Part shown: in pieces, positions 78-15,602 of the stretch
Position numbering within the stretch: the stretch's first letter is position 1
Layout of the letters: each line of letters opens with the position of its first letter
NCBI RefSeq assembly: GCF_006539925.1
Contig: NZ_BJNY01000001.1
Span: 1-64,000, forward strand
DNA length: 64,000 nt
Reading direction: 5' to 3'
Source of the DNA: Glutamicibacter uratoxydans
GTDB taxonomy: Bacteria > Actinomycetota > Actinomycetes > Actinomycetales > Micrococcaceae
Translations under genes and position numbers: made by a program
Notes under the pieces: model-generated
Seen by the model: only the letters and a program-made list of their open reading frames with translations
Told to the model about the DNA's origin: nothing
Databases searched by the model: none

Positions 78-119
78 GACGCCCCATAAACCGCATGATT
101 ACGCGGGATATGGGGCGTC
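78..119. repeat. nested inverted repeat directly upstream of the tRNA
   Basis: A perfect 10-bp outer stem (GACGCCCCAT with ATGGGGCGTC) encloses a second 4-bp stem (CCGC with GCGG) around an 8-nt loop. It begins two bases from the 5' end of the tRNA on the phage side. There is no T-run, so a simple intrinsic terminator is doubtful. It could be an arm-type site or transcriptional insulation of the tRNA. Confidence 0.6.
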
Positions 120-208
120 TCGCATTAAGTGCTTGACAAGCAAGCAACCACATGCAGGTACATCAAAACACTATACACCCAGCTACACGTGGACATTATT
201 TGGACACC

Positions 209-382
209 CTAATAGGTGCGTCTACGCTGCCGGAGCCAGTTCAAAACATCCGCTTCGTCATAGCGAACAGTACGATCACCAAGCTGGTAGTACGGTGGGC
301 CATCGGCACGATTCTCTTCGAGCCAACGCACACTCACACCTAACATTTCGGCGACCTGTTTCCGCGTCAACAGACTAGTCAT
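209..382 (-). CDS. xis: excisionase-like MerR/AlpA-type DNA-binding protein (57 aa)
   Basis: This short gene encodes a winged-helix protein starting MTSLLTRKQVAEMLGVSV and ending RQRRRTY. The pattern 'T-x-K-x-V-A-E-M-L-G-V-S' then 'D-R-x-V-R-Y-x-x-x-D-V-L-x-W-L' is typical of small AlpA/MerR-type excisionases and directionality factors. It lies 130 bp from the left attachment core, and after excision would face int across attP. The ATG overlaps a GACTAGTC palindrome shared with the int upstream region, which suggests repression in the lysogen. The Xis role is inferred from fold and position. Confidence 0.8.
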   Translation of the reverse strand: MTSLLTRKQVAEMLGVSVRWLEENRADGPPYYQLGDRTVRYDEADVLNWLRQRRRTY

Positions 383-390
383 GACATGTC
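373..390. promoter_or_regulatory. putative repressor operator at xis
   Basis: GACTAGTCATGACATGTC: two 8-bp palindromes with a 2-bp spacer, overlapping the xis start codon. The identical 18-mer (19 bp with the following A) lies upstream of int at 58168-58185. Related pairs occur at other early gene leaders. Confidence 0.65.
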
Positions 391-394
391 ACTG

Positions 395-574
395 CTAGTC
401 GGCAAGAACGACTGCAAGCAGCTTATCGAAGCGATCCTTCGACATGTTGTAGGTGCGTTCGTTCTCGTCGTGCTTCCAAGAGTACGAGACGTTCGAGGGG
501 GAGTACTCCTTGATGATGCCGGTTGCATCGGTGGAGTGGAACTGGAACTTAGTGCCCTTGGTGATCTTAGCCAA
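395..574 (-). CDS. small hypothetical protein (59 aa)
   Basis: Open frame from a TTG start preceded by GAAAGGA, running to a TAG stop. The product begins MAKITKGTKFQFHS and is hydrophilic with a central Tyr/Trp-containing stretch (SYSWKHDENERTY). I do not recognise the family. It lies between thyA and xis on the same strand and may be co-transcribed with them. The start is the only reasonable one in frame. Confidence 0.6.
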   Translation of the reverse strand: MAKITKGTKFQFHSTDATGIIKEYSPSNVSYSWKHDENERTYNMSKDRFDKLLAVVLAD

Positions 575-625
575 AGTGTATGGTTTCCTTTCGGGAAATG
601 AATGGGGTTGTGGGTTGGTGTGGCC

Positions 626-1465
626 TTAGACGGCCACGGGAGCCTTGATGGCTGGGTGAGACTCGTAGCCGGTGAGCTTGAAGTGCTCAGGCTTGTAGTC
701 GTCGATGGATTCTTGAGGGGTTATCTCAAGGCGTGGGGCGCAGTCAACGAACAGGCGACCCATTAGCTCGTCCACCTGATCCATGTGGTTCTGGTAGATG
801 TGCGCGTCACCAATCTGAATGTGAAGCCATCCAGGTTTGTAGCCGGTCTGCTGCGCGATGATGCGCTGAAGTACTGCGTACTGGGTGATGTTGAACGGCA
901 GGCCCAAGAACATGTCAGAACTACGCTGGTAGAGCTGAAGGTCAAGGTAGCCGTGCTTGGTCACATAGCACTGGAAGAACGTGTGGCACGGCGGGAGGGC
1001 CATTTGGTCGATCTGTCCGACGTTCCACGAGTTGACGATGTGTCGTCGTGAGAACGGGTCGGCCCTGATGCCGTCGATGAGGTTCTGCATCTGGTCGATC
1101 TTTCGAACACTCACTGGCGAATAAGGGTTGACCGGCGCTTCAGTCCACCATGCGCGTCGCCACTGTGCGCCATAGCCGGGGCCGATGGTTCCGTCCCAGC
1201 CCTGCCATTCATCCCAGATCGTGACGCCGTACTTGTCGCGCAGATCGCCCACGTGCGTCGAGCCACTGAGCATCCATAGGAGCTCTCCAATGACGCTCTT
1301 GAAGTGAACGTTCTTCGTGGTGATGATTGGCAGCGTGTCGGTGTTGTCGAACTCTAGGTTCACTCCAAAAGCCGACTTGGTTCCAACACCTGTGCGGTCT
1401 TCGCGCTCTTCACCGATGCTCAGCACGAGGCTTAGGGCTTTATGGTATGCGAAGTCAGCCTCCAC
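626..1465 (-). CDS. thyA: thymidylate synthase (ThyA)
   Basis: This enzyme methylates dUMP to dTMP using methylene-tetrahydrofolate. The 279-residue product is a normal ThyA length. Visible hallmarks are the N-terminal REDRTGVGT phosphate-binding loop (R21), the SRRH arginines at 140-141, the catalytic Cys160 in LPPCHTFFQ, and QRSSDMFLGLPFN, which contacts nucleotide and folate. Translation starts at GTG and overlaps the stop of the upstream lipoprotein gene (TAGTG). With NrdF and dNMP kinase elsewhere in the prophage it supports DNA precursor supply. Confidence 0.97.
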   Translation of the reverse strand: MEADFAYHKALSLVLSIGEEREDRTGVGTKSAFGVNLEFDNTDTLPIITTKNVHFKSVIGELLWMLSGSTHVGDLRDKYGVTIWDEWQGWDGTIGPGYGAQWRRAWWTEAPVNPYSPVSVRKIDQMQNLIDGIRADPFSRRHIVNSWNVGQIDQMALPPCHTFFQCYVTKHGYLDLQLYQRSSDMFLGLPFNITQYAVLQRIIAQQTGYKPGWLHIQIGDAHIYQNHMDQVDELMGRLFVDCAPRLEITPQESIDDYKPEHFKLTGYESHPAIKAPVAV

Positions 1466-1896
1466 TAATTACCTCCGCGCATGTGGATGAGGTCTTCGCC
1501 GACAAGGCAGAAGTCTCGGGTGTCCAGGTTGCGTACCGCGTCGGCTGACGGGTAACCCTGAGGGCCGACCAGCCCCGCCTTGAACACGTTGTCGAGGGCG
1601 TTGCCGTACTCTGCCTGAATCTTGCGGAACGTGGCCTTGTAAGCCATCGCAGGGTCTTCAACGATGGTTGACGAGCGGTCGTTCTTTGCGGTGGTGATTG
1701 CGTTGCAGGCGTTGTTTGCTGCTGCGATCATCGAGTTGTAGTGGTCAATGACGACCTCGTACTGCTCGGTGACGTGCGGGGCGCTGACAACCTTTTTGCC
1801 TTCACCAACCCATGAGCTGACGACACTGCATCCGCTCAAAAGAAAAGCACCCGCTGTTGCGAGTGCTGCGTACTTCAAGGCTGGTTTAGTCTTCAT
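1465..1896 (-). CDS. prophage lipoprotein (143 aa)
   Basis: The product starts MKTKPALKYAALATAGAF and carries the lipobox LLSGC, so it should be exported and lipid-anchored on the outer membrane face. The remainder is soluble and partly helical, with three further cysteines, and matches no domain I know. A longer in-frame extension was rejected because the signal peptide defines the start. It overlaps thyA by one base and the 1886-2293 gene by about 11 bases. Phage lipoproteins often act in superinfection exclusion; that role is a guess here. Confidence 0.8.
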   Translation of the reverse strand: MKTKPALKYAALATAGAFLLSGCSVVSSWVGEGKKVVSAPHVTEQYEVVIDHYNSMIAAANNACNAITTAKNDRSSTIVEDPAMAYKATFRKIQAEYGNALDNVFKAGLVGPQGYPSADAVRNLDTRDFCLVGEDLIHMRGGN

Positions 1897-2293
1897 CGTC
1901 CTCTTCTTCTGGTTCTGCCGGCCATTCGACTGGCGGCATCCCTTCGTTCTTTGCGTGCCGGTCAATCGACTGACGAAGCCAATCATTCTCAATGCTGGCC
2001 GGGTCTTGGATGGCCTCAAGGTATTTCTTGCGAGCCTCATCCCATGACTTCTGTTCAGCCTCTAGCATTCGCGTGAGCTCTAGTGGTGACTTGGCGCGGG
2101 TTGCCTTTAGGCCTGCCCCGGACATTTCGACTTTGAGCCCGCACGCTTCGAGCAGTTCGCCAAGCTCTGCAACCTTGACGTAGACGAGCGCGGTCTTTGC
2201 GCTCAGTTCAACGCTGGTGAGGTCGATGCTTGCAATGTTGTCGTCTGATCGACGCCAAGCATCTACGTCGCTAAAGCTGGATGGGCGCGCCAC
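1886..2293 (-). CDS. hypothetical protein with very acidic tail (135 aa)
   Basis: GTG start overlapping the stop of the upstream lipoprotein gene. The protein is mainly helical and ends in an acidic run (EPEEEDDED). No recognisable domain. It sits between two lipoprotein genes with overlapping ends, so the three are probably translated from one message. Confidence 0.7.
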   Translation of the reverse strand: MARPSSFSDVDAWRRSDDNIASIDLTSVELSAKTALVYVKVAELGELLEACGLKVEMSGAGLKATRAKSPLELTRMLEAEQKSWDEARKKYLEAIQDPASIENDWLRQSIDRHAKNEGMPPVEWPAEPEEEDDED

Positions 2294-2907
2294 TACTTGC
2301 CCCCAAGAATCTTGGTGGCCTTGGCGTTGTCGCCGTCCTTCAAAGCCTGCTCAGCTTCAGCCTGAAGCTTGGAGACGTCCTTGTCGGTGTCGACACCTTC
2401 AACGAAAGTCTTCTGGCGCTGGAACTCGGTGAGCGCGGTGGTGCACATGAGTTCGAGGCTGTTGGAGAAGTCGACATACTGGCCACCTGGCGTGAAGCCG
2501 TAACGGTAGAAGCTGTCGCCGTGGTACAGGCCGTCAACGGAACGCTTAGGCAGCGTCACCATGCCCTGACCCTGAAACTCGCCACCAAATGGTTCTTGTG
2601 GGTTGAAGAACGTGGTCGACGAAGTGGTCAGCTTGCCAGCAATCGGAGTCGTCACGATTGGGGCACTGTTGCTGGACGGGAAAGCGGTGCAGAACTGGAT
2701 TGCCGCAGGGTCGTCGTAGAGCTCCTGCGCCTTGTTGTAGTTGTCCAGCTCGGTGTCGTTCTTCGGGATGTAGGCGGTCTTCGATGCCGCCTTCTGTTCA
2801 ACCTGCTTGTACTGCCCGGTGGGTTCCTGTGCTGGCCCACATGCGGCCAAGCTGAGGGCGGTGAGGCCCGCAACGGATGCAAGGGCGATAGTCTTCTTCA
2901 ATCGCAT
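2293..2907 (-). CDS. prophage lipoprotein (204 aa)
   Basis: The signal sequence MRLKKTIALASVAGL leads to the lipobox LAACG, so this is a secreted lipid-anchored protein. The ATG follows GAAAGGAATCGTT, a good ribosome binding site; upstream in-frame sequence is not signal-like and was excluded. The mature part has two further cysteines and a helical Lys/Ala-rich C-terminus resembling a TPR-like hairpin. Family not identified. It heads an overlapping cluster ending in thyA. Confidence 0.8.
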   Translation of the reverse strand: MRLKKTIALASVAGLTALSLAACGPAQEPTGQYKQVEQKAASKTAYIPKNDTELDNYNKAQELYDDPAAIQFCTAFPSSNSAPIVTTPIAGKLTTSSTTFFNPQEPFGGEFQGQGMVTLPKRSVDGLYHGDSFYRYGFTPGGQYVDFSNSLELMCTTALTEFQRQKTFVEGVDTDKDVSKLQAEAEQALKDGDNAKATKILGGK

Positions 2908-2929
2908 AACGATTCCTTTCAAGGATGGG

Positions 2930-3223
2930 TTAGTTGTTTGGGGTTTTCTGCCCACAAGTGGGGCACTTGGGTGCGCTCTCGGCCATGAGCTCGTAGGCAC
3001 GCATGGCGTCCTTCCATGGGCCACCAGACGCAATCTCTTCGCCGGGTTCCTTCGCCCACACGGGAATCCACTCGCCGTTAGGTTCCTGGGCGAACAGTTC
3101 GATGCGACCGAAGCGCGTGTACCGCGAGTGGTAGAAGAGCGCGTTGGATGCGTGAGAGGCGTTCAGGTGAACCTTCTCCATCGGCATCCTGCCAGGGATG
3201 ACAGTCTTGTAGTTGATCGCCAT
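2930..3223 (-). CDS. hypothetical protein with C-terminal CxxC (97 aa)
   Basis: Starts MAINYKTVIPG and ends with CPTCGQKTPNN, half of a zinc-ribbon-like knuckle. The ATG overlaps the stop of the upstream gene (TAATG). Its fold and role are unknown. It is the last gene of an overlapping run that begins near 6.2 kb. Confidence 0.7.
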   Translation of the reverse strand: MAINYKTVIPGRMPMEKVHLNASHASNALFYHSRYTRFGRIELFAQEPNGEWIPVWAKEPGEEIASGGPWKDAMRAYELMAESAPKCPTCGQKTPNN

Positions 3224-3621
3224 TAGTCCTCCAAGTCGATTCGAGCCCAGTTGCCGTTGCGGAGTTCGTAAACACCGTCGACTAGCTTTGATGTGTCCGC
3301 TTGATGCTGGCCAGAATTGCCGCCACCTTGCGATACGCCAGCCTTCTCGGCGATATGCCACGCTGCTGGCCAACCATTGTGCCTGTCGTCGAGTGGCGTG
3401 AATATCGAGCCGCTAGCGCCGAACGGGAAATCACCTGTTGAGTCGATGGCGGGATGCTTCTTGCCGATGCTGATCACAGTTACGCCAACAGATTCCGCGA
3501 TAGCTAGAAGCTTTTCGGTCTTGGTCTGCGCCTCAACGAGGTCAGCCTTGATGCTTTCAAGCTTGTCCAGCGCGTCCTTGGCTTCGTGTTCGATCCATTT
3601 GATCTTGCGCTCGAAGTCCAT
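3223..3621 (-). CDS. hypothetical coiled-coil protein (132 aa)
   Basis: The N-terminal half (about residues 1-50) is a charged heptad-like helix beginning MDFERKIKWIEHEAKDAL. The C-terminal half is a short globular Gly/Trp-rich segment. The start was chosen at the ATG that overlaps the neighbour's stop. No known function. Confidence 0.7.
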   Translation of the reverse strand: MDFERKIKWIEHEAKDALDKLESIKADLVEAQTKTEKLLAIAESVGVTVISIGKKHPAIDSTGDFPFGASGSIFTPLDDRHNGWPAAWHIAEKAGVSQGGGNSGQHQADTSKLVDGVYELRNGNWARIDLED

Positions 3622-3938
3622 TAGGCGTTCACCAACTCGTAGGTCTTGTGGAAAATGTCTGGGTTGCAAGGGTAGAACTCGCCAGCCACGCCCCTGATGA
3701 TGTAGTCACCTTCGGTAGCTGCCATCGTTCCCTCAAGGGTTTCGAGGTAGATTTGGGCTGGGCATCCTGGAATAGTGAAGCCGTCAGATTCGCCTTCCGG
3801 CTGAGCCGCCATGTAGGTCGCCATAGCGTCATTCAGCGCCATCCATTGAACAACTTCGAGGCCTCCAAGGGCCGTTCCGTCCCACTGCATCGCCTCGACC
3901 TCGACAGGCATCTTGCGGTACTTGATTGGCACTGCCAC
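3621..3938 (-). CDS. phage protein of the 'QWDG ... EFYPCxPDIFxxTYE' type (105 aa)
   Basis: GTG start. The pattern 'VEAMQWDGT' near the N-terminus and 'GDYIIRGVAGEFYPCNPDIF' near the C-terminus recurs in many phage-encoded proteins of unknown function. The 9184-9537 gene shows the same N-terminal signature (KAFQWDGT) and a GDWIL strand, so the two are probably distant paralogues. Both lie in the early leftward region. Confidence 0.75.
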   Translation of the reverse strand: MAVPIKYRKMPVEVEAMQWDGTALGGLEVVQWMALNDAMATYMAAQPEGESDGFTIPGCPAQIYLETLEGTMAATEGDYIIRGVAGEFYPCNPDIFHKTYELVNA

Positions 3939-4228
3939 TAGTCCATGTCCTCCTCTTGGAGAAAGCTATCTTCGATGAGCTCCGAAATGTCGACACCTGC
4001 ACCACCGGCCAGTTTCGTGACCGCGTACTGAAGGCGTTTGATCTTCCCTGCAACCTTCGGGTCAAGCGTGGTTCGAGCGCCGCTGACAGCGCTAAGAATC
4101 CACTTGGCCTCTTCTTCGGTCAGTTCAAGCTCGTACTCTTCTTGAATCTCGAAGATGGTCATGAAATCAAGGCCTTCGAGCAGTTCACTTGCAATGCCTT
4201 GAGCCATGTTTCGCACTTCTTGGCGCAT
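3938..4228 (-). CDS. hypothetical protein (96 aa)
   Basis: Starts MRQEVRNMAQGI and overlaps both neighbours by one or two bases. Acidic and helical (for example FEIQEEYELELTEEEAKWI). No recognised domain. Confidence 0.65.
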   Translation of the reverse strand: MRQEVRNMAQGIASELLEGLDFMTIFEIQEEYELELTEEEAKWILSAVSGARTTLDPKVAGKIKRLQYAVTKLAGGAGVDISELIEDSFLQEEDMD

Positions 4229-4590
4229 TACTTGACCTCCAACTTCTTAGGCGGGTAGGCGCCCAGTAGCTTCTTGTTCTCCTCGTAGCGGAGGATCGTG
4301 GCATCACGTTTACGCCATTCGTTCAGTAGCAACTTGGCACTGTAGAAGATCGCTTCAGGCGTGAAGTCTTCATCGCTAACCCCGTCGACGGCGGTGCTGA
4401 GGTAGAACTCTTCACCATCGTCACGAATGCGTCGAACGACACCGCTGATGATCACTTTGGATCCGAACCGTTTGCGATGCTTGCGGATTTCCAGGCCAAC
4501 GTTGTAGTGGCCTTCAAGTACATTCCAGAAGTGGCCTTCTGGCAGCTCTGGCAAGCCTGTAGTTTCGTCGATCTTGATTGCCTCGCTCAA
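4228..4590 (-). CDS. hypothetical protein, member A of a local paralogue trio (120 aa)
   Basis: TTG start. The N-terminus has GLPELPEGHFWNV and the C-terminus KLLGAYPPKKLEVK. Both signatures recur in the 4886-5497 gene and the N-terminal one in 4587-4886. The middle differs between members, so the trio looks like duplicated genes with conserved termini. Function unknown. Confidence 0.7.
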   Translation of the reverse strand: MSEAIKIDETTGLPELPEGHFWNVLEGHYNVGLEIRKHRKRFGSKVIISGVVRRIRDDGEEFYLSTAVDGVSDEDFTPEAIFYSAKLLLNEWRKRDATILRYEENKKLLGAYPPKKLEVK

Positions 4591-4886
4591 GCTTTGGCAC
4601 CCTTTCTGTGTTGGTTGATGGCGTCCATTTCGCGGCAGATTCTGCGGACTTTCTGTCGACTCATTGCAAACTTGATCCAGCGACGAAGTTCCTGAAGATC
4701 ATCCCCGAAGGCACTGTTCTTTGAGTGGATAACCCACCAGCCGACCTTCTTTGAACCGATAAGCCTCTTTCGGCGAAGCTGAAGTTCCCGCCACTGCATC
4801 ATGTGTGACTCACGCACGTCCCAGAACAAGCCATCAGGCAGCGGTGGGAACTCTTCGGGCGGGTAGTCGTAATCGCTCAGTGCCAT
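4587..4886 (-). CDS. hypothetical protein, member B of the trio (99 aa)
   Basis: The N-terminus has PPLPDGLFWDVRES, matching the 'LPxLPxxxFWxV' motif of its two neighbours. It lacks the C-terminal GAYPPK signature and instead ends in a basic helix (MDAINQHRKGAKA). It overlaps the stop and start of the flanking genes, indicating coupled translation. Confidence 0.7.
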   Translation of the reverse strand: MALSDYDYPPEEFPPLPDGLFWDVRESHMMQWRELQLRRKRLIGSKKVGWWVIHSKNSAFGDDLQELRRWIKFAMSRQKVRRICREMDAINQHRKGAKA

Positions 4887-5497
4887 TAGGCCACCACCAG
4901 GCTCTTCGGAGGGTAAGCGCCGACAAGCTTGTCAATGCGCTCCCGGTCGGCCTTTTCCTTGGCTTCGCGCTCCTGGTCTTCGATGAACTCGGCGTACACT
5001 TCCTTGGCTGTGCGCAGGATCGACTCTTCGGTGAGACTAAAGTCCATGAGCTCAATGGCGCGAGCTGGCGTGGTTGCGTAGTCGTTCCAGGAATCCTTGC
5101 TGGCATCTAGCTCATCAATGGTCAGATTGAGACGTGCGCGAAGTTCGACTTCTTCCCGCTCAGTAAGTTCGCTCAAGTCTTTGATGCGGACGACGCGCTT
5201 TCTGGCAACTCGAATTTCACGCTCAACCTCTTTAGCCTCGGTCGTGTAGAGGTATTCAGGCTCGCTGTTCCACCAATGCCAAGATGGATTCTTCGACTTC
5301 ACCTCCTTGGTTTCGGTGCGAGTGGCGCGTTCCTTGATGGTGACGAGGTACGCTTCACCTTCATATTCGTAGAAACCTGCGCCGTAGTACCCACCACTTA
5401 CCCAGCCGTAGTGGTGGTCGCTTCGCTCAACTTCCCAGAAGTGGTTCTCGGGAAGTTCCGGCAATCCGGTTGCTGGGTCGATAACAATCTCGGTCAA
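4886..5497 (-). CDS. hypothetical protein, member C of the trio (203 aa)
   Basis: TTG start behind GAAAGGAATCAGA. Signatures GLPELPENHFWEV at the start and LVGAYPPKSLVVA at the end flank a longer centre rich in Tyr, Gly and charged helices. It is the longest of three adjacent related genes; a common origin by duplication is inferred from the shared termini. Confidence 0.72.
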   Translation of the reverse strand: MTEIVIDPATGLPELPENHFWEVERSDHHYGWVSGGYYGAGFYEYEGEAYLVTIKERATRTETKEVKSKNPSWHWWNSEPEYLYTTEAKEVEREIRVARKRVVRIKDLSELTEREEVELRARLNLTIDELDASKDSWNDYATTPARAIELMDFSLTEESILRTAKEVYAEFIEDQEREAKEKADRERIDKLVGAYPPKSLVVA

Positions 5498-5509
5498 TCT
5501 GATTCCTTT

Positions 5510-6187
5510 CTAAAAGAGTGCTCCGGGCTCTCCGGGGCCATCTGAGTATTTGCCGCCGCTCTCGTAGCCTTTACGTTCGATGGCTTCGAGCAGCATGGTG
5601 AGGTGTGCGCCAAATTTGACGCCTATCGTGTTGCCTCCAAGCTGTGCGAAGTCGAAGACGTCTTGGGCCTGGTTGGGCTTGCCCGCACGGCACTTGGTCA
5701 CACGCGCGATGAGGTCGCGGGTGAACGCAATGGCCGGTACGGGCGTTGGCGTGCGTTGAAGCACGTCGTCAATCTCTTCCCACAAACCCACCTCGTCGTC
5801 CGTTGATTCGGTGAGGCGTTGCGGGTCGGCGTCGGTGAGGACTGCCAGGTCTTCAGCGCCGGAACGAATCACAAGCTCACCATTGATGAGCTGCATGGTT
5901 ACGACTGTTCCGGCGCGACCAGCGCCCTCAACCTTTTTGAGGACTGAAGCGACGTCTTTCACGTCTTGGATATGGGCATGAAAAAAGCCCTCCGAATTGG
6001 AAGGCTCTATGAGAACTTCGCGGTTCTCTTTAGACGCTGTGTATCGTCCGCGACCGTAAACTGTGAGGCGCTTACTGCCCCAACAGATTTTTACGACCTC
6101 ATTGAAAACAGCTTGTTTATCCAAACACAAGGCTTGAACATTGTCGAAGACTTCTGCCAAGTCTTTAGGGTGGATTGAAACCGTCAA
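5510..6187 (-). CDS. hypothetical protein, possibly a divergent sliding-clamp-like protein (225 aa)
   Basis: TTG start behind AAAGGATCATAT. The chain shows a beta-rich pattern (VVTMQLINGELVIRS, NTIGVKFGAHLTMLLEAI) loosely reminiscent of phage DnaN-like proteins. It has no motif that proves this, so the clamp suggestion is weak. It begins an operon of about eight overlapping genes running left and is divergent from 6257-7036. A terminator-like hairpin lies inside its coding sequence at 5981-6006. Confidence 0.6.
   Translation of the reverse strand: MTVSIHPKDLAEVFDNVQALCLDKQAVFNEVVKICWGSKRLTVYGRGRYTASKENREVLIEPSNSEGFFHAHIQDVKDVASVLKKVEGAGRAGTVVTMQLINGELVIRSGAEDLAVLTDADPQRLTESTDDEVGLWEEIDDVLQRTPTPVPAIAFTRDLIARVTKCRAGKPNQAQDVFDFAQLGGNTIGVKFGAHLTMLLEAIERKGYESGGKYSDGPGEPGALF
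5981..6006 (-). terminator. intragenic terminator-like hairpin (possible attenuator)
   Basis: On the minus strand an 8-bp stem (AGCCTTCC with GGAGGGCT, one G-T pair) and 5-nt loop are followed by six T residues. The structure lies about 60 codons into the 5510-6187 gene, in frame as EPSNSEGFF. It looks like a Rho-independent terminator and could limit transcription of the leftward operon when translation is poor. Confidence 0.55.
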
Positions 6188-6256
6188 ATATGATCCTTTC
6201 TTTTATCGAGAAAAATCAGAAGCATGGGATAATTCAAAAAAACACAAGGAGATGAA

Positions 6257-7036
6257 TTGAACCAGCGAACAGCACTAGATACCATCGCAGACTGCTTTGA
6301 GGCAATTGACGAAACGCGCATCACGGGAGAGAATCCACTAAAAGCTTTTAGGAGAGCTGCCGGAGCCGGAGCGTCACGGGATGACGTGATAGCAAAGCGA
6401 CTATGCTCTAGCGCTGATATGGAACTGGGGATTTACTTCTCTCTTCCCTCTAGCCAAAGAATCATCAACAACCAACCAGATATAGAGCAGGTCATCTGGT
6501 CACTGCTGGACGTAATAAACTCGTTCCGAGGAAGTGGCGGATACGCAACTCCATCGAAAGTTGAAGTGAGCATGCTTCGCATGATTTCTCAGAGCATCAC
6601 ATCTGCGAGCAATGCCAGCCACACGTTGACAGACGAGTCCTTCTCCACCCTTCGAGCAGAGCTTCAACAGATAGAGCAAGAGCTCGGCGACCCAGCTAAT
6701 GACTCGGACTACATAAAGGCTATTCGCGTTCAAGTCCGACACCTAAGGGCTGAACTGGATCGAATGCCCGTAGACAGTGATGCCATAATCTCCAAGGCTG
6801 CTGCACTAATTGGGATGTTGGCCATCTGTGCGAAAAACTCTCAGGGCCCAGAGCAAAAGAAGTTTATTAAGTTCCTAAAACGTACACTTGGTGCAATAGG
6901 ATTCGGCGCCTTCACCGGAGCTGGTGGCGATATCCTCGGCGACGCCGTAATGGGCGCAATCGAGGGCGCGTTTACAACGGATGTTGTTGCCCCAGATGTC
7001 AATAATGTTGACGATCACGACCTACCTGTCGCCTAG
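6257..7036 (+). CDS. lone plus-strand gene, probable prophage moron (259 aa)
   Basis: Start TTG, directed by AAGGAG five bases upstream (the nearer ATG runs straight into a stop). The product is helical: a coiled coil near residues 130-170 (LRAELQQIEQEL and following), then a Gly/Ala-rich hydrophobic segment near 220-245 (GFGAFTGAGGDILG). It is the only plus-strand gene in the left arm. Its DNA is more AT-rich than its neighbours, an AT-rich leader with GATAAT (6228-6233) precedes it and a 16-bp palindrome follows. This is the layout of a lysogenic cargo gene. Function unrecognised; a membrane-acting exclusion role is only a guess. Confidence 0.75.
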   Translation: MNQRTALDTIADCFEAIDETRITGENPLKAFRRAAGAGASRDDVIAKRLCSSADMELGIYFSLPSSQRIINNQPDIEQVIWSLLDVINSFRGSGGYATPSKVEVSMLRMISQSITSASNASHTLTDESFSTLRAELQQIEQELGDPANDSDYIKAIRVQVRHLRAELDRMPVDSDAIISKAAALIGMLAICAKNSQGPEQKKFIKFLKRTLGAIGFGAFTGAGGDILGDAVMGAIEGAFTTDVVAPDVNNVDDHDLPVA

Positions 7037-7045
7037 CTTTCCCAC

Positions 7046-7092
7046 CTAGTCCTCCTTGAGCGCATGCAGCTATGGTGCTCAAGGAGGACTAG
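7046..7092. terminator. 16-bp perfect inverted repeat between convergent genes
   Basis: CTAGTCCTCCTTGAGC at 7046-7061 is exactly complementary to 7077-7092, with a 15-nt loop. It lies just after the 6257-7036 stop and before the end of the convergent 7109-7534 gene. There is no long T-run, but position and strength suggest a bidirectional terminator. Confidence 0.6.
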
Positions 7093-7108
7093 AAGTTTAT
7101 GCACCCAT

Positions 7109-7534
7109 TCATGACCAGATCGTTTTCCTTTCTAGTTCTTCATGGATAGCTTCGGGCGCTATCCACTGTTCGTGAATCTTTCGCGTCTTGGCATCGTCGG
7201 CCAAACGCTTTACACGCTTGACTTGCTCCTCGGCGTGCTTGCGCTGGTCGCGCTCCATCAGGAATGAACTGTCAAGCTTTTCCAGCTCGGCAAGCAGCGC
7301 CAGGACCCGTTGAGGGTGGAACGTTTCAAGGAACTTGGCGTCGGCTTCGCTGATTTCAAGGCCGACGTCGCAGCAACCACAGCCAAGCTGGCCGATGACC
7401 TCGATGCCTTCGCTGGATTTCACTCGGTCAACGGCATACTCATCGGCTGATGCGTATTCGTGCTTCGGCGCTTTCCATTCGCCTTGAGTGGCCTCGCTGG
7501 CGATACGGCGCAGGTTCTCCATTACGGCGGTCAT
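7109..7534 (-). CDS. Ead/Ea22-like phage protein (141 aa)
   Basis: Starts MTAVMENLRRIASEATQGEW, the 'LRxxAExATxGxW' opening typical of Ead/Ea22-like early phage proteins, and has the usual 'FLETFHPQRVLALLAELE' segment. A GCGCC run of cysteines lies near residue 50. The upstream in-frame extension was rejected because this ATG overlaps the stop of the HAD gene (ATGA). Exact function of the family is unknown. Confidence 0.75.
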   Translation of the reverse strand: MTAVMENLRRIASEATQGEWKAPKHEYASADEYAVDRVKSSEGIEVIGQLGCGCCDVGLEISEADAKFLETFHPQRVLALLAELEKLDSSFLMERDQRKHAEEQVKRVKRLADDAKTRKIHEQWIAPEAIHEELERKTIWS

Positions 7535-8061
7535 GCTGCTACCAGCCCCATCGCTTCGCCGTCGTCCTTTTCCTCGGTTGCCGGCAGGATTGGCGCACCA
7601 TTCAGCAACGGCCATCCCGGCACCTGGTAGTGCGGAATCTCGTTGCGTTCGTACATGGCGATCACGCGTGGATCGTCGTCGTAGGCGTACACAATCTCGT
7701 AGTGCTCCTGAAGCTCAAGCAGCACCTCCTCCTTCACCACATACGCTGGGCGCTTGTCGCCGTCCATGCGGTGAATGTGATGGTCGGCGTAGAAGCCATT
7801 ACGCATCAGCCACCATGTGGTTTCCCGACGCCACTTCTCCGGGCGTCCGGTCAGCACAATGCATTTGACGCCATCATTCTTCGCCTTGAGCCATTCCTCG
7901 GTAAGGAACTGGTTGGGCGGGCAGTCCATCGAGCCGCGATGAAATGCATCCAAGTCTTTCCTGGTGAAGTCCTTGTGTGTTTTGTCAACGAAGTGGACAA
8001 CGCTTGAGGTGTCGCACAAAGCGCCGTCCAAGTCGTGAATCACGGCCTTAGGCTTCGACAT
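7531..8061 (-). CDS. HAD-family phosphatase resembling the PNKP 3'-phosphatase domain (176 aa)
   Basis: The N-terminal nucleophile motif HDLDGAL places the acylphosphate aspartate at D10 and the acid/base at D12. Motif II is LTGRPE (T70) and the acidic motif is YDDDP (D127-129). Spacing and the KPKAVI-, VVKEEV- and HYQVPG-like flanks resemble the C-terminal phosphatase domain of T4 polynucleotide kinase. There is no kinase domain. It may remove 3'-phosphates from damaged RNA or DNA and could pair with the RNA ligase at 53.7 kb. The ATG follows GGAGGAAATCA. Confidence 0.82.
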   Translation of the reverse strand: MSKPKAVIHDLDGALCDTSSVVHFVDKTHKDFTRKDLDAFHRGSMDCPPNQFLTEEWLKAKNDGVKCIVLTGRPEKWRRETTWWLMRNGFYADHHIHRMDGDKRPAYVVKEEVLLELQEHYEIVYAYDDDPRVIAMYERNEIPHYQVPGWPLLNGAPILPATEEKDDGEAMGLVAA

Positions 8062-8215
8062 TGATTTCCTCCAATCGGTTAGGGTTGTACGCCTCAACGA
8101 AGGCGTCTTCGAGCTCCAACGGCTCCGGGTAGTCCTCGCTAGTCAGCGAATCATCACAGCCACATGAGCCATCGGAAGGGCATACGCCATAGTTCGCATC
8201 TCCCATGTACGCCAT
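8048..8215 (-). CDS. small acidic Cys-containing protein (55 aa)
   Basis: This short frame starts MAYMGDANYGVCPSDGSCG and is very acidic. Its ATG abuts the nrdF stop codon (TAAATG in transcription order is stop then start) and its 3' end overlaps the start of the HAD phosphatase gene, so it is translationally coupled on both sides. It is too short for routine ORF calling. Three cysteines within residues 12-20 could bind metal; it is not a glutaredoxin (no CxxC active site). Confidence 0.7.
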   Translation of the reverse strand: MAYMGDANYGVCPSDGSCGCDDSLTSEDYPEPLELEDAFVEAYNPNRLEEINVEA

Positions 8216-9537
<1,322 letters not shown>

Positions 9538-9563
9538 TGGGTTCCTTTCGCTTTTTGGGTATG

Positions 9564-9595
9564 AAAAAACGACCACGAATAATTCATGGTCGTTT
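9564..9595 (-). terminator. intrinsic terminator upstream of the nrdF cluster
   Basis: On the minus strand AAACGACCA pairs with TGGTCGTTT across an 11-nt loop and is followed by a run of six T. It lies between the 9611-9904 gene and the 9184-9537 gene. Confidence 0.8.
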
Positions 9596-9610
9596 CTGGT
9601 TGAAGGCTTG

Positions 9611-9904
9611 TTAGTCTTCTGGGTCGGCTTCGCCGTCCTGCTGCTTGAGGTATTCGCACTCGATGAAATACAGCTTCGACAAGACGGTGGAGCGAATCAT
9701 GTCGACCTGCTCTTCAGGGGTCAAAGGGAACTCTTCGCCAGCGACTACCAGGACCACTTCGTCCCCACGTTTCTTGACGCCTTCAAGAACTCCCATGACC
9801 TCAACCAGGTCTGGGTCGTCGGCTCCTTCGCCGTTCGGGTCGTAGGTGAAGCTCACGGTCTGGCCAATGTTCTTTGGCTTGAGGTTGTTGACGCTCAACT
9901 GCAT
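9611..9904 (-). CDS. hypothetical protein (97 aa)
   Basis: Starts MQLSVNNLKPKNIGQTV; beta-rich N-terminal half and an acidic C-terminus (QQDGEADPED). It overlaps the upstream gene by one base and precedes an intrinsic terminator, so it is the last gene of its transcript. Family not recognised. Confidence 0.68.
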   Translation of the reverse strand: MQLSVNNLKPKNIGQTVSFTYDPNGEGADDPDLVEVMGVLEGVKKRGDEVVLVVAGEEFPLTPEEQVDMIRSTVLSKLYFIECEYLKQQDGEADPED

Positions 9905-10443
9905 TAGGTTGTTCGGTTCTTTCTAAGCGTTTCTGTTCTGATGAGGTTGCGGAGCGGTTTTCCGCTGTGAAGTGAGAGCATGGCGAGGTTCGTTGCGGAT
10001 TGTAGTTCTTCGAACGTCCATTCGAATCCTCCATCGGTCATGTCCACTTGCGGTAGGTGTAGTCGTTTCACCCAGTCATCTAACGGCACGTCAAATGTGG
10101 GTTCGGGCAGCGAGTCGGCTTGGCGCTTCAACTCTAGAGGGTCAGTGTTCGAACCGTCGTGAGCGTATGTTCGAACATGGCTTCGAGTATATCCTATGCC
10201 GTTGACGGTTTGAACGACCTCAAAATACTTGCGATGCAACACCACACCAGGGCGCAATGCGCCAGATGGTTTCGAGTTGCCCATGGCAGCACGAACGAGT
10301 ATCCAGCGCCCCGGATGACGCGCCGTCACAGTGTTGATGTGCTCAGCAAAAGGCACGCCGTCGCGGCCCGGCTGTCGAAGCGCGGTAATGTACGGCGTGC
10401 CTTTTTCGTGCGGTGAAAACTCGTGATTATTCCAAGATTTCAT
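9904..10443 (-). CDS. hypothetical protein (179 aa)
   Basis: Starts MKSWNNHEFSPHEKG. It is basic, with an N-terminal half rich in Arg, His and Gly and a C-terminal helical part (FEELQSATNLAML). No known domain. The ATG overlaps the 3' end of the 10427-10597 gene, so the two are coupled. Confidence 0.68.
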   Translation of the reverse strand: MKSWNNHEFSPHEKGTPYITALRQPGRDGVPFAEHINTVTARHPGRWILVRAAMGNSKPSGALRPGVVLHRKYFEVVQTVNGIGYTRSHVRTYAHDGSNTDPLELKRQADSLPEPTFDVPLDDWVKRLHLPQVDMTDGGFEWTFEELQSATNLAMLSLHSGKPLRNLIRTETLRKNRTT

Positions 10444-10597
10444 GCAAGGCCATTTCAGCTACCGGCAACCACTCGGCGATTAGCGTCTCCTTGTGGGCTG
10501 GTGCAACGTCAGACTCATTGACTTGCAGGTGTGTCAATGCAAGCTTCAGGGCAAGGTTTTCACGGCGCATCATGCCGTAGTCAGCTCCGTGGCTCAT
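10427..10597 (-). CDS. small hypothetical protein (56 aa)
   Basis: The frame starts MSHGADYGMMRRENLALK; a longer frame exists but this ATG overlaps the stop of the preceding micro-gene (ATGA). Mostly helical. Function unknown. Confidence 0.6.
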   Translation of the reverse strand: MSHGADYGMMRRENLALKLALTHLQVNESDVAPAHKETLIAEWLPVAEMALHEILE

Positions 10598-10671
10598 GAC
10601 AGCTCCATCCTGGATAGAAGGCCTGCGCCGACTGCTAAGCCTGCAAGTACGCAAACGATTAGTAGGATCAT
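10594..10671 (-). CDS. single-pass membrane microprotein (25 aa)
   Basis: MILLIVCVLAGLAVGAG followed by a short polar tail (LLSRMELS): one hydrophobic helix. Start and stop overlap both neighbours (TGATG and ATGA), which supports real coupled translation despite the length. Confidence 0.5.
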   Translation of the reverse strand: MILLIVCVLAGLAVGAGLLSRMELS

Positions 10672-10757
10672 CAGTGACCACCCCACGACGCCATAAAGCC
10701 GATGGCGACTCCAACTAGAACGCCGAGCAGTATGTAATACACCAAGTCGGGGCTCAT
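10671..10757 (-). CDS. single-pass membrane microprotein (28 aa)
   Basis: MSPDLVYYILLGVLVGVAIG then a short tail: one hydrophobic helix. The ATG overlaps the stop of the 10757-10993 gene (TAATG) and the stop overlaps the next ATG. Two adjacent tiny membrane proteins in one overlapping chain suggest they act together. Confidence 0.5.
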   Translation of the reverse strand: MSPDLVYYILLGVLVGVAIGFMASWGGH

Positions 10758-10993
10758 TAGCGTTCCTCCTTGCTTCCTCTAGTCACTTTGATTTCGACCT
10801 TGTAGTCGATGTTCGGCCATTCGAACTCCACCGAACCCTCATAGTTCTGTTCGACGAACTCAGCGACCGCGCCGATGCACTGGTCAGTGACGTCCTGCTT
10901 GTTGCCGACGAACAATGTTCCGGCGTCATTCAAGAATCCGGCTTCGATGTTCTGCGCGAAGCGCTGGGCCTGGATGCCAATCTTTCTAGCCAT
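10757..10993 (-). CDS. hypothetical protein (78 aa)
   Basis: Starts MARKIGIQAQRFAQNIEA; mixed alpha/beta with a basic C-terminus (VTRGSKEER). Overlaps its upstream neighbour by eight bases. Family not recognised. Confidence 0.68.
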   Translation of the reverse strand: MARKIGIQAQRFAQNIEAGFLNDAGTLFVGNKQDVTDQCIGAVAEFVEQNYEGSVEFEWPNIDYKVEIKVTRGSKEER

Positions 10994-11315
10994 CTTCCAG
11001 CTCCTTCTCGGCGCTCAGCAGTTCGCTTAGTCGCTCACTCATTGCATCCGCGAGTGGCTTGTCCACCTGGTAGCACGGCCTAAATGCCGGGTGCCGGCAA
11101 AGCCAATCCCATGCGGCAATCCGTTCGTCGCTGGATTCAAGGTGGTGCGCAAGCTGTTCTAGCGCCCACTTAGCACCTTCTTCAAAGCCGTAGTCCTGTG
11201 CGTCCGACTCGCTAGAGAATCCCCAGAACGCTGGCATCTCGCGGTCGTACAAGGCGTGCCGATTGTCGCGCGCTGCCTGCTCGATAACCTTTTCGTCTAC
11301 CTGTAGTGCAGGCAT
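10986..11315 (-). CDS. hypothetical protein (109 aa)
   Basis: Starts MPALQVDEKVIEQAARDN, with helical segments containing Trp (PAFWGF, AAWDWLCRHPAF). The start was set just after the stop of the 30-residue micro-gene; an extended frame lacks support. No known function. Confidence 0.62.
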   Translation of the reverse strand: MPALQVDEKVIEQAARDNRHALYDREMPAFWGFSSESDAQDYGFEEGAKWALEQLAHHLESSDERIAAWDWLCRHPAFRPCYQVDKPLADAMSERLSELLSAEKELEDG

Positions 11316-11316
11316 T

Positions 11317-11409
11317 TCAGAACCCCATCTCTTCTGCGATTTCACAGGCTTCGGCGTAGCTAATGTCGCCATTCATCCAAGCTTCTTCTACCTCTTCGTA
11401 GGCACTCAC
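11317..11409 (-). CDS. acidic microprotein (30 aa)
   Basis: GTG start overlapping the stop of the 11406-11702 gene, and stop one base before the next ATG. The 30 residues are mostly acidic and helical (MSAYEEVEEAWMNGDISY at the start). The tight coupling at both ends is the only evidence that it is translated. Confidence 0.5.
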   Translation of the reverse strand: MSAYEEVEEAWMNGDISYAEACEIAEEMGF

Positions 11410-11702
11410 GCTGTCACCTCTCTCGATAGGGCGTTGATACGCGTCAATAGTTCGCACACCTCTTCGTCCTCCAAGTACCCGATCACGTCGTCAGTGATGG
11501 GCGTGGAGTAAGTCAAGTCACCTAGTTCGTCGAGAACGCCGAGTTCCCACAAGCCATTTGGGCCTCCACGGCTATACATGGTGCAGATCACGGACGCGCC
11601 AAAGCCGTTAGGGAACTTGTAGATATGCTGAGCGCCCCTATGCAGGGGCTTGGACTGTACCGGGATGAAATGGGACGGTGGCGGGAACAGTGCGCCGCTC
11701 AT
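11406..11702 (-). CDS. hypothetical protein (98 aa)
   Basis: Starts MSGALFPPPSHFIPVQSK; a beta-rich core (GASVICTMYSRGGPNGLWEL) and an acidic helix (LEDEEVCELLTRI). It overlaps the upstream gene by ATGA. Unknown function. Confidence 0.68.
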   Translation of the reverse strand: MSGALFPPPSHFIPVQSKPLHRGAQHIYKFPNGFGASVICTMYSRGGPNGLWELGVLDELGDLTYSTPITDDVIGYLEDEEVCELLTRINALSREVTA

Positions 11703-11989
11703 GCTGGCACCTCTTCCAGGACCAGTCCAGCGTCCAAGCCGATCACGTCACACAGGAGCGTCAGAGCGCCCCTAGGGTCGCCAGTACGGAGCTTGTGTTT
11801 GAGTGCGTCAACATAGGTTGGCGCGATCCATCCGGCGCGCATCAGCTTGGTGAGCAGCTGGTTCCGCTGATCCAGTCCGGCCTCGTCGCTGTCGACAGAC
11901 GCGGAGGTGTTCAAGTGCGCGTTGCGGTTGGTGCGCACCATGATTTGCAAGTCTTGGACGTCAGTGTCCAATGCGGCATGTACGCCCAT
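11699..11989 (-). CDS. hypothetical protein (96 aa)
   Basis: Starts MGVHAALDTDVQDLQIMV; helical and acidic, ending LVLEEVPA. Part of the overlapping leftward cluster; no domain recognised. Confidence 0.66.
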   Translation of the reverse strand: MGVHAALDTDVQDLQIMVRTNRNAHLNTSASVDSDEAGLDQRNQLLTKLMRAGWIAPTYVDALKHKLRTGDPRGALTLLCDVIGLDAGLVLEEVPA

Positions 11990-11991
11990 GA

Positions 11992-12435
11992 TTAGTTGCC
12001 CTCCAATGCTGGGGGCTTCGAGAGGTAAGCCTCGTCGCCCCTAGCCACCGCTTCAGCCCAACTGCGCCCCTCGTCCTGCTCGGACTGCACAACAGACAAC
12101 CAACCCGGCTCATAGGTTAGTGGCATGGAGTTGCCGACCATCACGTATTTGGCCGACTCTCCTTCGACTTCAACTAGGTCATCGCGACTCACACCGAGTC
12201 GCGCCAGCGCCTGGCCAACGATGCACCCTTCACCTTCGTAAGACGCAAAGGTCGGGTCAATTTCCGAAGGGACATAAGCGCCAAGGTAGGAGCATTCCTT
12301 CATTCCTGGGTGCGCTTCGCGGAATGCTACGCGCTCCGGCTGGTCAGCGTACACAAAATCGGGGCGCTCTTCAGCAAGCTTGCGCACGGCTTCAACGACC
12401 TGAGCAGCTCTCAAGTCTTCAATCTTGGTAGTCAT
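11992..12435 (-). CDS. hypothetical protein (147 aa)
   Basis: Starts MTTKIEDLRAAQVVEAVR. It has the pattern 'CSYLGAYVP...GCIVGQALARLGV', seen in small phage proteins of unknown role that carry two cysteines. The ATG follows GAAAGGAATCCTAAGAA, an adequate ribosome binding site. Confidence 0.7.
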   Translation of the reverse strand: MTTKIEDLRAAQVVEAVRKLAEERPDFVYADQPERVAFREAHPGMKECSYLGAYVPSEIDPTFASYEGEGCIVGQALARLGVSRDDLVEVEGESAKYVMVGNSMPLTYEPGWLSVVQSEQDEGRSWAEAVARGDEAYLSKPPALEGN

Positions 12436-12438
12436 TTC

Positions 12439-12594
12439 TTAGGATTCCTTTCGGTTGAAAATTCGTGCCCACCATGCAGGCCATTCGGCTACTGGTGTGC
12501 ATAGGATGATTGCGAAATAGCCGGCCCCAAACAGTGCTATGAGGTCGGCAGCGTTGACGTCTGGGCTGAACAGCCACGCCAGAAACTCAGGCAT
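12439..12594 (-). CDS. small membrane protein (51 aa)
   Basis: Starts MPEFLAWLFSPDVNAADL and contains one clear hydrophobic span (LIALFGAGYFAIILC) followed by a Trp/Arg-rich tail (WWARIFNRKES). The start overlaps the stop of the 12587-12838 gene. Unknown role. Confidence 0.6.
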   Translation of the reverse strand: MPEFLAWLFSPDVNAADLIALFGAGYFAIILCTPVAEWPAWWARIFNRKES

Positions 12595-12838
12595 CGGGAA
12601 CCTCAGCCCATTCGGTGACGTACTCAAGCTGCTCTCCAGGATCAAGGATTGCTATGAACGGGATCGGGGTTAGCTGGATTTCCGTGAAGCCTTCACCCGG
12701 CTTGCCCTCCATCTCGGCGTATCCCACGCGATACGGAAGGCCATTCAACAGAACGACTCGGCCCGGAGCCCACTGCTCTTTGCCGTCAACATCCGGCGGG
12801 AACGGTGCGCTCATTTCAGTTTTCGCTACGATCTTCAT
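12587..12838 (-). CDS. hypothetical protein (83 aa)
   Basis: Starts MKIVAKTEMSAPFPPDVD; a small beta-rich protein with many prolines (LTPIPFIAILDPGEQ). It lies between two small genes with minimal spacing. No family recognised. Confidence 0.65.
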   Translation of the reverse strand: MKIVAKTEMSAPFPPDVDGKEQWAPGRVVLLNGLPYRVGYAEMEGKPGEGFTEIQLTPIPFIAILDPGEQLEYVTEWAEVPDA

Positions 12839-12841
12839 GGC

Positions 12842-13027
12842 TTAGAACTCCTCGACGGTGATCACGCAGACCGTGTTACCGGCTGCCACAACCTCAGCGA
12901 ACCTGTCAGCGTCAGCCTTGCAGGCGTACCGGGTCGCATGGTTGCGGTTGCTCATGCGCACACTGCCGTAAAGGTATTGGGGGAGCGTGCCAACGATGCG
13001 CGAGTCTTGCTTGATAATCCAGGGCAC
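12842..13027 (-). CDS. hypothetical protein (61 aa)
   Basis: GTG start just after the stop of 13030-13209. The frame MPWIIKQDSRIVGTLPQY to CVITVEEF is a compact alpha/beta protein. Function unknown. Confidence 0.62.
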   Translation of the reverse strand: MPWIIKQDSRIVGTLPQYLYGSVRMSNRNHATRYACKADADRFAEVVAAGNTVCVITVEEF

Positions 13028-13029
13028 GA

Positions 13030-13209
13030 CTACAGCTTTACTTTGCCGAGGATCATCGCCTCAATTGGGTCGTACCAGACTTGCGTGTCAAGTCCCATGA
13101 GGTACATGATCAGCTCGACTTGCCCGCGAAGGTACTCGCCATTCACGTCTTCATCATTCGCGTACTCATTTAGCCCAGCGGCAACAGTGATCAGCTCTCC
13201 GAGTTCCAT
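13030..13209 (-). CDS. small acidic protein (59 aa)
   Basis: Short frame starting MELGELITVAAGLNEYAN, preceded by AAAGGACTGAGCAGC. It heads the overlapping cluster that runs left to about 9.9 kb. Its leader carries the conserved element described at 13226-13249. Confidence 0.65.
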   Translation of the reverse strand: MELGELITVAAGLNEYANDEDVNGEYLRGQVELIMYLMGLDTQVWYDPIEAMILGKVKL

Positions 13210-13225
13210 GCTGCTCAGTCCTTTC

Positions 13226-13249
13226 GATTGTGTTTGGTCTTAGAGACAC
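13226..13249 (-). promoter_or_regulatory. conserved leader element upstream of 13030-13209
   Basis: On the minus strand GTGTCTCTAAG...CAAACACAATC. Close copies precede four other minus-strand genes (13711-13736, 14602-14624, 15514-15539, 16458-16480), always 20-45 bases before the start codon. A shared early promoter or leader signal is inferred. Confidence 0.5.
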
Positions 13250-13254
13250 ATAAC

Positions 13255-13282
13255 GCGCCATGAGTCGCGGGAATCATGGCGC
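13255..13282. repeat. 9-bp inverted repeat
   Basis: GCGCCATGA and TCATGGCGC, perfectly complementary with a 10-nt loop, between the 13304-13693 lipoprotein gene and the next leftward gene. No T-run; possibly a weak terminator or regulatory site. Confidence 0.5.
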
Positions 13283-13303
13283 ATCAAGCGTTGCTATAGA
13301 GGG

Positions 13304-13693
13304 TTATTCGGCGTACATTTCATGGGCGGCAATCGTGCCATTCACACAATCCGACAGCGCGTCCCCTTCTGGGTAGTCGTCATAGGTTGGATCGTCAACG
13401 TCGACCGGGACCTGGTGCAACAACTCGCACACCAGAATGTCCCGCTCAAACTCGAAGGACGTTTCGAACGTTGCGGACGCGTCCAACAATTCAGTCATGG
13501 TGTCGCGGACAATCACCCGCATGTCGTACTCGGTCAGAGCTTCACGGACTTCCGGCAGCGACTCGGAAACGTCACCGACAGCAACGCTTTCGAACGGCTC
13601 AGAGGTCACGTCGCGCACCGTGTCAGCCTGCGCAGGGGCACAGCCGACCAACAATAAGGCGACTGCAGCAGACGTTGCTAGAACTTTCTTCAT
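13304..13693 (-). CDS. prophage lipoprotein (129 aa)
   Basis: Signal MKKVLATSAAVALLLVGC ends in the lipobox LVGC. The mature chain is strongly acidic with two further cysteines (LVCELLHQ, SDCVNG), which could form a disulfide outside the cell. It stands alone between two intergenic regions with inverted repeats and carries its own leader element (13711-13736). Unknown family. Confidence 0.78.
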   Translation of the reverse strand: MKKVLATSAAVALLLVGCAPAQADTVRDVTSEPFESVAVGDVSESLPEVREALTEYDMRVIVRDTMTELLDASATFETSFEFERDILVCELLHQVPVDVDDPTYDDYPEGDALSDCVNGTIAAHEMYAE

Positions 13694-13821
13694 GGTTGTT
13701 TCTCTCTTTCAAATTGGGTTGGCTCTAGGGAGACACGGCAGGCGCTCACGCCTTGGAAGGTTTAGGAAACGTGAGCACCACCGAACCGCACTAGGTCAGT
13801 GGGTTAGATCAGGGGGAGAGG

Positions 13822-14574: not shown

Positions 14575-14646
14575 TTCGTGCAGTCCTTCCAGACTCATTC
14601 AGAATTGTGTTTAGCCATTAGCACGGCATCACCACACCCACACCAT

Positions 14647-14665
14647 GACTTGTCAGCGACTAGTC
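14647..14665. promoter_or_regulatory. putative repressor operator
   Basis: GACTTGTC and GACTAGTC separated by AGC, upstream of the 13822-14574 gene and its leader element (14602-14624). Same paired-palindrome design as the sites at xis and int. Confidence 0.55.
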
Positions 14666-14699
14666 ACGTTTGGGCGTGATGAAACCCTTCTAATCGTTG

Positions 14700-15490: not shown

Positions 15491-15541
15491 TTCTACACCT
15501 TCCAAGTGTTATTGATTGTGTTTGTACTTAGGCGTACACAT

Positions 15542-15559
15542 GACGCGTCACGACTAGTC
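15542..15559. promoter_or_regulatory. putative repressor operator
   Basis: GACGCGTC AC GACTAGTC, upstream of the 14975-15490 gene. The spacing between palindrome starts is 10 bp, as at xis and int. Confidence 0.55.
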
Positions 15560-15602
15560 ACCGTGAAGCACCATGAACGCGCCTAACCGCGTCACTAAAG
15601 AT

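Follow-up and report, generated by a model that had tools for sequence, protein, structure and literature searches.

The closest described design to the operators reported here is that of mycobacteriophage BPs, whose repressor gp33-103, a small helix-turn-helix (HTH) protein, serves five regulatory regions spread over the genome and whose full operators each combine two palindromes built from GAC/GTC halves (CGACATATGTCG), as far as the accessible part of the report details it (PMC4557955). The cluster A (L5/Bxb1) repressor recognizes dispersed, phage-specific motifs that drift together with the repressor; according to excerpts of PMC6550527 and PMC9283540, these stoperators are asymmetric 13-bp elements in one orientation and are bound by a monomer. 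In restriction systems, the small XRE proteins C.Esp1396I and C.Kpn2I make their contacts to GAC, GTC, and an outer TG, two dimers being placed on adjacent sites (excerpts of PMC3758141 and PMC6237814). Further, for the Microbacterium phage clusters EC, EG, and EI, intergenic repeats are described that are short, conserved, and located a little way upstream of phage genes, those of EG consisting of two inverted motifs 2 bp apart (accessible part of PMC7302621), and the sites of Apl of phage 186 lie one helix turn apart at phage promoters (accessible part of PMC7498355).

The locus studied here lies in a window of 64,000 nucleotides of Glutamicibacter uratoxydans (positions 1 to 64,000 of NZ_BJNY01000001.1) and belongs to a prophage bounded by 38-bp att repeats at 39–76 and 59491–59528. 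The att core corresponds to the 5′ half of the gene for tRNA-Ala(CGC), which spans 3–76; the left end of the phage now occupies the place of the former promoter of this gene and must supply a promoter. An earlier note had reported the same 19-mer at the xis and int ends, and GACTAGTCATGACATGTCA is indeed found exactly at 373–391 and 58168–58186. At up to three mismatches, the window holds four matches to the 19-mer, with 0.02 expected (100 shuffles). As the note had stated, the first copy overlaps the start codon (complement of 380–382) of the xis-like gene (209–382, minus strand), which encodes a 57-aa protein of the HTH_17 excisionase family. The second copy stands before the tyrosine integrase gene int (58207–59460, plus strand), with 20 bases rather than the given 22 separating it from the ATG at 58207. 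Since xis and int lie at opposite prophage ends, both point at attP in the excised circle.

The 19-mer is the clearest form of a tandem operator in which two palindromes TGACnnGTCA stand side by side, 10 or 11 bp apart. The prophage contains eight of these operators, defined by at most three mismatches in 16 positions, and two variants. The identity of letters between the xis and int copies would add little weight, because the motif has only four free bases and TA, AT, and GC recur there. The search for all GACnnGTC pairs at 10–11 bp that the note had proposed yields six more sites. The initial observation is real, conserved, and larger than first noted, and both copies of the 19-mer are very probably bound by one phage regulator. 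One repressor for both ends, as had been proposed, agrees with the two sites being members of one operator set; a device for xis and int alone does not agree with six further sites at other genes.

At the left end, the operator over the xis start codon extends from 372 to 391 (AGACTAGTCA TGACATGTCA; spacing 10), and a third, poor copy runs to 399. In the left arm, operators are located at 14646–14666 (spacing 11; 47 bases upstream of gene 13822–14598), 15541–15560 (spacing 10; upstream of gene 14975–15505), 16091–16111 (spacing 11; upstream of a gene starting at about 16034), and 16490–16509 (spacing 10, three mismatches; upstream of gene 16209–16442). The operator at 19090–19109 (spacing 10) covers the start of the candidate repressor gene (18739–19110, minus strand) and precedes a divergent pyrophosphohydrolase-like gene by about 20 bases. 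In the right arm, two perfect operators are found at 55604–55624 (spacing 11; upstream of gene 55163–55558) and at 58167–58186 (spacing 10), the latter between int and the divergent exonuclease gene and one base longer than the 19-mer (TGACTAGTCA TGACATGTCA). Thus, two sites lie over start codons (xis and the XRE gene), and six lie 35–60 bp upstream of the likely starts of leftward genes, gene starts being chosen from open frames and sequence. The two variants are positioned at 16953–16972 (TGGCTGGACA TGTCTAGCCA), over a promoter-like −35 element whose −10 is conserved in a related phage, and at 17000–17019 (TGACTGGACA TGTCTAGTAG), likewise conserved there. A ninth match of the tandem scan at 55311, with three mismatches and within gene 55163–55558, is taken as chance. 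The operator at 55604 is embedded in a longer inverted repeat (55595–55636, GCTTGGCCGTGAC arms), which folds at −31.4 kcal/mol (z −8.1).

These operators share with BPs the paired GAC/GTC palindromes located intergenically near promoters and at the gene of the (here candidate) repressor. The BPs palindromes, however, have 12 bp with GAC-N4-GTC and are 5 or 8 bp apart in the accessible description, an arrangement that is absent from our set, where palindromes of 10 bp with GAC-N2-GTC abut or are 1 bp apart and their centers are 10–11 bp apart. With cluster A, the prophage has in common dispersed sites with drifting motifs and distantly related portal genes, whereas the asymmetry and single orientation of stoperators are not found in its sites, which are palindromic pairs at gene starts. 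The boxes of restriction C proteins are, in the excerpts, GAC/GTC separated by TATA and linked to restriction genes; the present sites have a 2-base spacer and belong to phage operons, and no restriction gene is among the Pfam matches of the 60 open frames scanned. By the features tested, the operators are thus of none of the BPs, cluster A, or C-protein types, although they would work like them. The literature matches listed for TGACATGTCA include no paper on a phage operator, and among those listed for GACATGTC one concerns a phage (P22 pid locus). A search of the literature on tandem palindromic phage operators returned nothing relevant, and the matches listed for operators of Arthrobacter prophage repressors contain nothing on such sites.

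The palindromes and their spacing are strongly concentrated in the prophage. Exact TGACnnGTCA occurs 10 times against 1.8 expected. Pairs with at most one mismatch in each palindrome, sought at distances of 3–40 bp, number six, half of them at 10 bp and the other half at 11 bp, with 0.013 expected per distance from first-order Markov sequences. A blind tandem scan open to any 4-base half-site gives 13 matches (mean of 4.8 in shuffles), eight of them with TGAC and every other half-site once. With GACnnGTC pairs at 10 or 11 bp and at most one mismatch, the 59-kb prophage has eight, compared with six in total, never two per locus, in 79 other viral loci (1.18 Mb).

These counts bear on whether a host regulator binds the sites or whether they are functionless chance or repeat DNA, which we regard as very unlikely. 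TGACnnGTCA is short, and 10 exact copies against 1.8 expected leave room for chance ones; moreover, the exact 20-mer is present in 16 viral stretches with unlike gene content, several of which are longer palindrome arrays in the scan of viral contigs and all of which we excluded from the evidence. The low background of six pairs in 1.18 Mb argues in the opposite direction, as does the host genome (3.79 Mb), where the three sites with 10-bp spacing and at most one mismatch all belong to the prophage and a search with this spacing found no copy elsewhere. Relaxed to three mismatches, the same search gives 11 sites, five in the prophage, compared with four for a reversed control pattern. Across 395 genomes of the family, the ten-spaced site (at most one mismatch) occurs in eight, three times in the host's own genome and once in each of seven others; four of these seven, judged by eye, show chromosomal genes (G022, G294, and G297 were left out). 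Further, another phage retains the sites at the same places while their letters differ. As a separate observation, unlike viral contigs (L008, L010–L015, L016, and L019–L021) contain arrays of at least three TGACnnGTCA at exact 10-bp steps.

This other phage, IMGVR_UViG_3300011872_000013 (32,757 bp; L063/L109), was found via the terminase and again via the repressor alignment and RNR. Its terminase and portal are 69% and 84% identical, and between about 394 and about 29,400 it runs parallel to the window, apart from sequence gained or lost locally. The contig, which may be a fragment, stops within the xis site and has no detectable int. The conservation in related phages that the note had called for is present in one relative. 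An XRE ortholog occupies the same place (34% over the alignment; 36% over 134 aa), and TGTC stands for TGAC in four matching places. The pair at L063 3209–3229 (spacing 11) aligns column by column with 14646. The intergenic pair at 4052–4072 (spacing 11) shares its stretch with 15541, the columns not being aligned, and the intergenic pair at 5071–5091 (spacing 11) shares a stretch with 16091 at an offset of about 25 bp; at the position aligned to 16091 itself (L063 5046), an A-like match is kept with three mismatches. Over the XRE start, GAC changes to GTC in the aligned site (7838–7869 versus 19090), and at the xis end the contig stops with CTAGAC versus CTAGTC in the window, as judged by eye, the automatic alignment having placed these six bases elsewhere. 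No counterpart of 16490 is seen. The variants at 16953 and 17000 have the TGTC form in both phages, and therefore not every site changed.

The exchange is also visible in hexamer counts. GACTAG occurs 18 times (6.9 expected) and GTCTAG five times (5.9 expected) at 78–18700 of the window, versus nine (6.0 expected) and 22 (5.1 expected) in the corresponding 18.8 kb of the related phage; the Fisher p value is 0.0008 raw, 0.016 with overlaps merged, and 0.012 without the conserved hairpin described below. In the right arm of the window, GACTAG is not enriched (five versus 5.3 expected). The second palindromes of the relative are poor: exact TGTCnnGACA occurs twice (0.6 expected), the sites of this phage escape the blind tandem scan, and a search for GACnnGTC pairs at 11 bp finds none in it. 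Elsewhere in the relative, a T-type pair (L109 16071–16091) lies just upstream of a gene absent from the window, which we take, by eye and from the motif PCQPF, to be a cytosine methyltransferase. The end of the contig at L063 18461–20252 is without a window counterpart and appears transposase-like by eye.

Searches for additional relatives covered several genes. The repressor alone, queried against viral and genome contigs, gave no confirmed relative; the portal gave none in either set, and the integrase gave none among viral contigs. The int side is not comparable, because the exonuclease query returned no viral stretch, only remote genus matches. Weak XRE matches appear in 60 of 395 family genomes and 144 of 396 order genomes; in 28 new family loci (L024–L051), scanned with short flanks, the best site is one three-mismatch pair in L032. 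The distant relatives L120, L124, L125, and L172 (exonuclease about 50%) neither match the repressor nor show any half-site repeatedly when scanned blind. In other viral contigs (L111–L113, L115–L119, and L122), an integrase lies close to a ribonucleotide reductase small-chain gene that is 70–73% identical to that of the phage, as if prophages adjoin the host ribonucleotide reductase gene.

The protein most likely to read the operators is encoded at 18739–19110. It has 123 aa from the ATG at 19110 and matches HTH_3 (XRE; PF01381) at 1.9e-9, with 37.8 bits against a curated cut-off of 23. In its predicted structure (pLDDT 77, pTM 0.50), the C-terminus forms one long helix. A lambda-type cI architecture, with an HTH followed by a C-terminal self-cleaving domain, is not found, HTH-type Pfam matches being the only ones up to E 0.01. 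Foldseek gives no match to the model at E 0.001 or better; HTH proteins lead the sub-threshold matches (ClgR, a designed binder, DdrO, Mbf1, and SinR), and a sequence search of solved structures gives a designed binder, the P2 C repressor, and HigA. The Pfam scan of 60 open frames, which left out late genes and some small frames, detects HTH domains solely in the XRE protein and Xis (E cut-offs 0.001 to 0.1), along with a weak 7kD_DNA_binding match at 9611–9904 (E 0.07). The earlier note had named the 18739–19110 protein as the repressor; what supports this is the member of the operator set on its start codon, here and in the related phage, as expected for autoregulation. We estimate a probability of roughly 70% that the 19-mer serves as operator for a repressor encoded by the phage itself, most probably the XRE protein of 123 aa, which would silence the early operons.

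The geometry of the half-sites bears on how this protein would bind, as GAC-N2-GTC is 2 bp tighter than the compared XRE operators, which makes the usual XRE dimer on each palindrome doubtful. Dimers of ribbon-helix-helix proteins often occupy short tandem palindromes. A phage protein that Pfam does not recognize, for example of this fold, might thus be the binder, since one such dimer per palindrome would suit the tight spacing better than an XRE dimer; we consider this unlikely, as no such domain is among the 60 open frames scanned (a subset of all frames), the XRE gene has an autoregulatory site, and XRE relatives co-occur with such sites. The XRE protein is the likely binder, and the half-site geometry is a point of specialist interest.

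The other HTH protein of the scan, Xis (P0002), could in principle bind the sites and combine excisionase and regulator functions like Apl of phage 186. One site does cover the xis start, and Apl-type proteins bind repeats 10–11 bp apart at promoters and att (accessible part of PMC7498355). The Apl sites, however, are direct repeats that also occur at attP, whereas the sites here are palindromes with none near att. An excisionase must bind near att, and no tandem site with up to four mismatches starts in 1–350 or 59240–59700; one four-mismatch match starts at 59236, inside int. Binding by Xis is accordingly very unlikely, and the XRE protein remains our preferred candidate.

At E 1e-3, this XRE protein matches no named phages other than 42 from Microbacterium, with records of about 17 kb; BPs is absent from the records matched. 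Weighing against the repressor reading, the similarity to the matched gene, gp22, is weak and covers the HTH only (38–40%, E 9e-5), and, according to the accessible part of PMC7302621, these phages (cluster EE) are lytic and without repressor genes. Repeats are reported there for clusters EC, EG, and EI and none for EE, whereas we find GACATGTC pairs in EE. Two of the 42 records, Scamander and TimoTea, were examined for sites. Scamander has eight copies of GACATGTC versus 0.3 expected (8–9 across the two phages). Its pairs 11 bp apart at 4138, 9994, 14880, and 16363 lie in late-gene gaps or over a gene start; of the further copies, one is in a gap (11332) and two are near the gp21 start. TimoTea has the seven places of Scamander plus one pair inside gp2, and the two count as one observation because their genomes are near-identical. 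The EE sites slightly raised our confidence in the repressor reading. If this reading is true, a regulator acting at dispersed sites would exist in the EE phages, for which the absence of a repressor is described.

The predicted reading helix (residues 43–51 in the model) is SYRTYSRW in the prophage protein, SVRTISRW in the relative, and SHGTISAW in gp22. Tentatively, and with less than even odds, we suggest a family of XRE repressors of the lambda fold that would bind GAC-N2-GTC palindromes spaced by one helix turn in a cooperative assembly, rather than as ordinary dimers on wide inverted half-sites, so that the half-sites on the same face would act as direct repeats. Such a family would be shared by the prophage, its relative, and the lytic Microbacterium EE phages, and between the two related phages TGAC would have turned into TGTC at several places in the genome, along with a change of two residues in the reading helix. 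If the XRE protein does bind at the tight half-site spacing, this would be an unusual way of DNA reading by a very common fold. The two phages form a natural pair with a seemingly joint change of operator and repressor, the route by which new immunity groups arise.

A consensus scan places a minus-strand promoter-like sequence, TTGACA-17-TATTGT (10 of 12 bases, a consensus match only), at 58159–58187, its −35 and spacer coinciding with the int-side operator. It reads leftward, away from int, into the replication operon that begins with a PD-(D/E)XK exonuclease gene (57279–58118, minus strand) and continues with DnaB-like helicase, RNA ligase, RuvC-like, Toprim/primase-like, and dNMP-kinase genes. 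TTGACA is in part the motif itself, and the region gave two promoter-like sites versus 0.9 in shuffles. The sole plus-strand promoter-like match in 54800–58400 is at 55009–55037, 3.2 kb before int. As the promoter-like sequence reads into the replication operon, the int-side site is first of all the operator of that operon, and the claim that it controls int is not borne out by this arrangement. Just upstream of xis, the consensus scan finds no promoter-like match; the site over the xis start may act as a roadblock or on a promoter invisible to the scan. C.Kpn2I binds over its own gene start as such a roadblock (accessible part of PMC6237814).

On this basis, we propose that the repressor, most likely the 18739–19110 protein, would bind GACnnGTC palindromes that stand in pairs, separated by one helix turn, at some ten places. 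By filling both members of a pair from the same face of the DNA, it would shut, in the lysogen, the replication operon that reads leftward from 58118, the early genes of the left arm with xis as the last, and its own gene together with the divergent pyrophosphohydrolase/late direction. Once repression is lost, the silenced genes would open together. Because int and the replication operon stand back to back, they share an operator; int is situated behind it and may be silenced too. The network would thus span the early operons and not xis and int only, and a joint release of xis and int, like any control of int, may be one part of it. One repeated 19-mer leads in this way to a testable regulon of an uncharacterized prophage and to the naming of its likely immunity repressor.

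Several further features of the prophage were recorded. In the stretch that separates the left early genes from the promoter-like −10 conserved at 16940, a strong RNA hairpin is predicted at 16562–16594 (minus strand; −31.2 kcal/mol, z −6.3), with a matching hairpin in the relative at L063 5392–5432 (minus strand; −34.5 kcal/mol, z −8.3). The outer stem (ACUGACUAGG/CUAGUCAGU) is common to both phages and the upper stem is changed. The hairpin has no Rfam match and is perhaps a leader, attenuator, or antiterminator. A non-coding control region at 18190–18400 is AT-rich and contains many TTAACG, CTATACG, and TATAAG repeats. Finally, a 57-aa protein encoded at 52585–52758 (minus strand) matches the T7 gp5.9 RecBCD inhibitor (PF25708, 3.1e-20).
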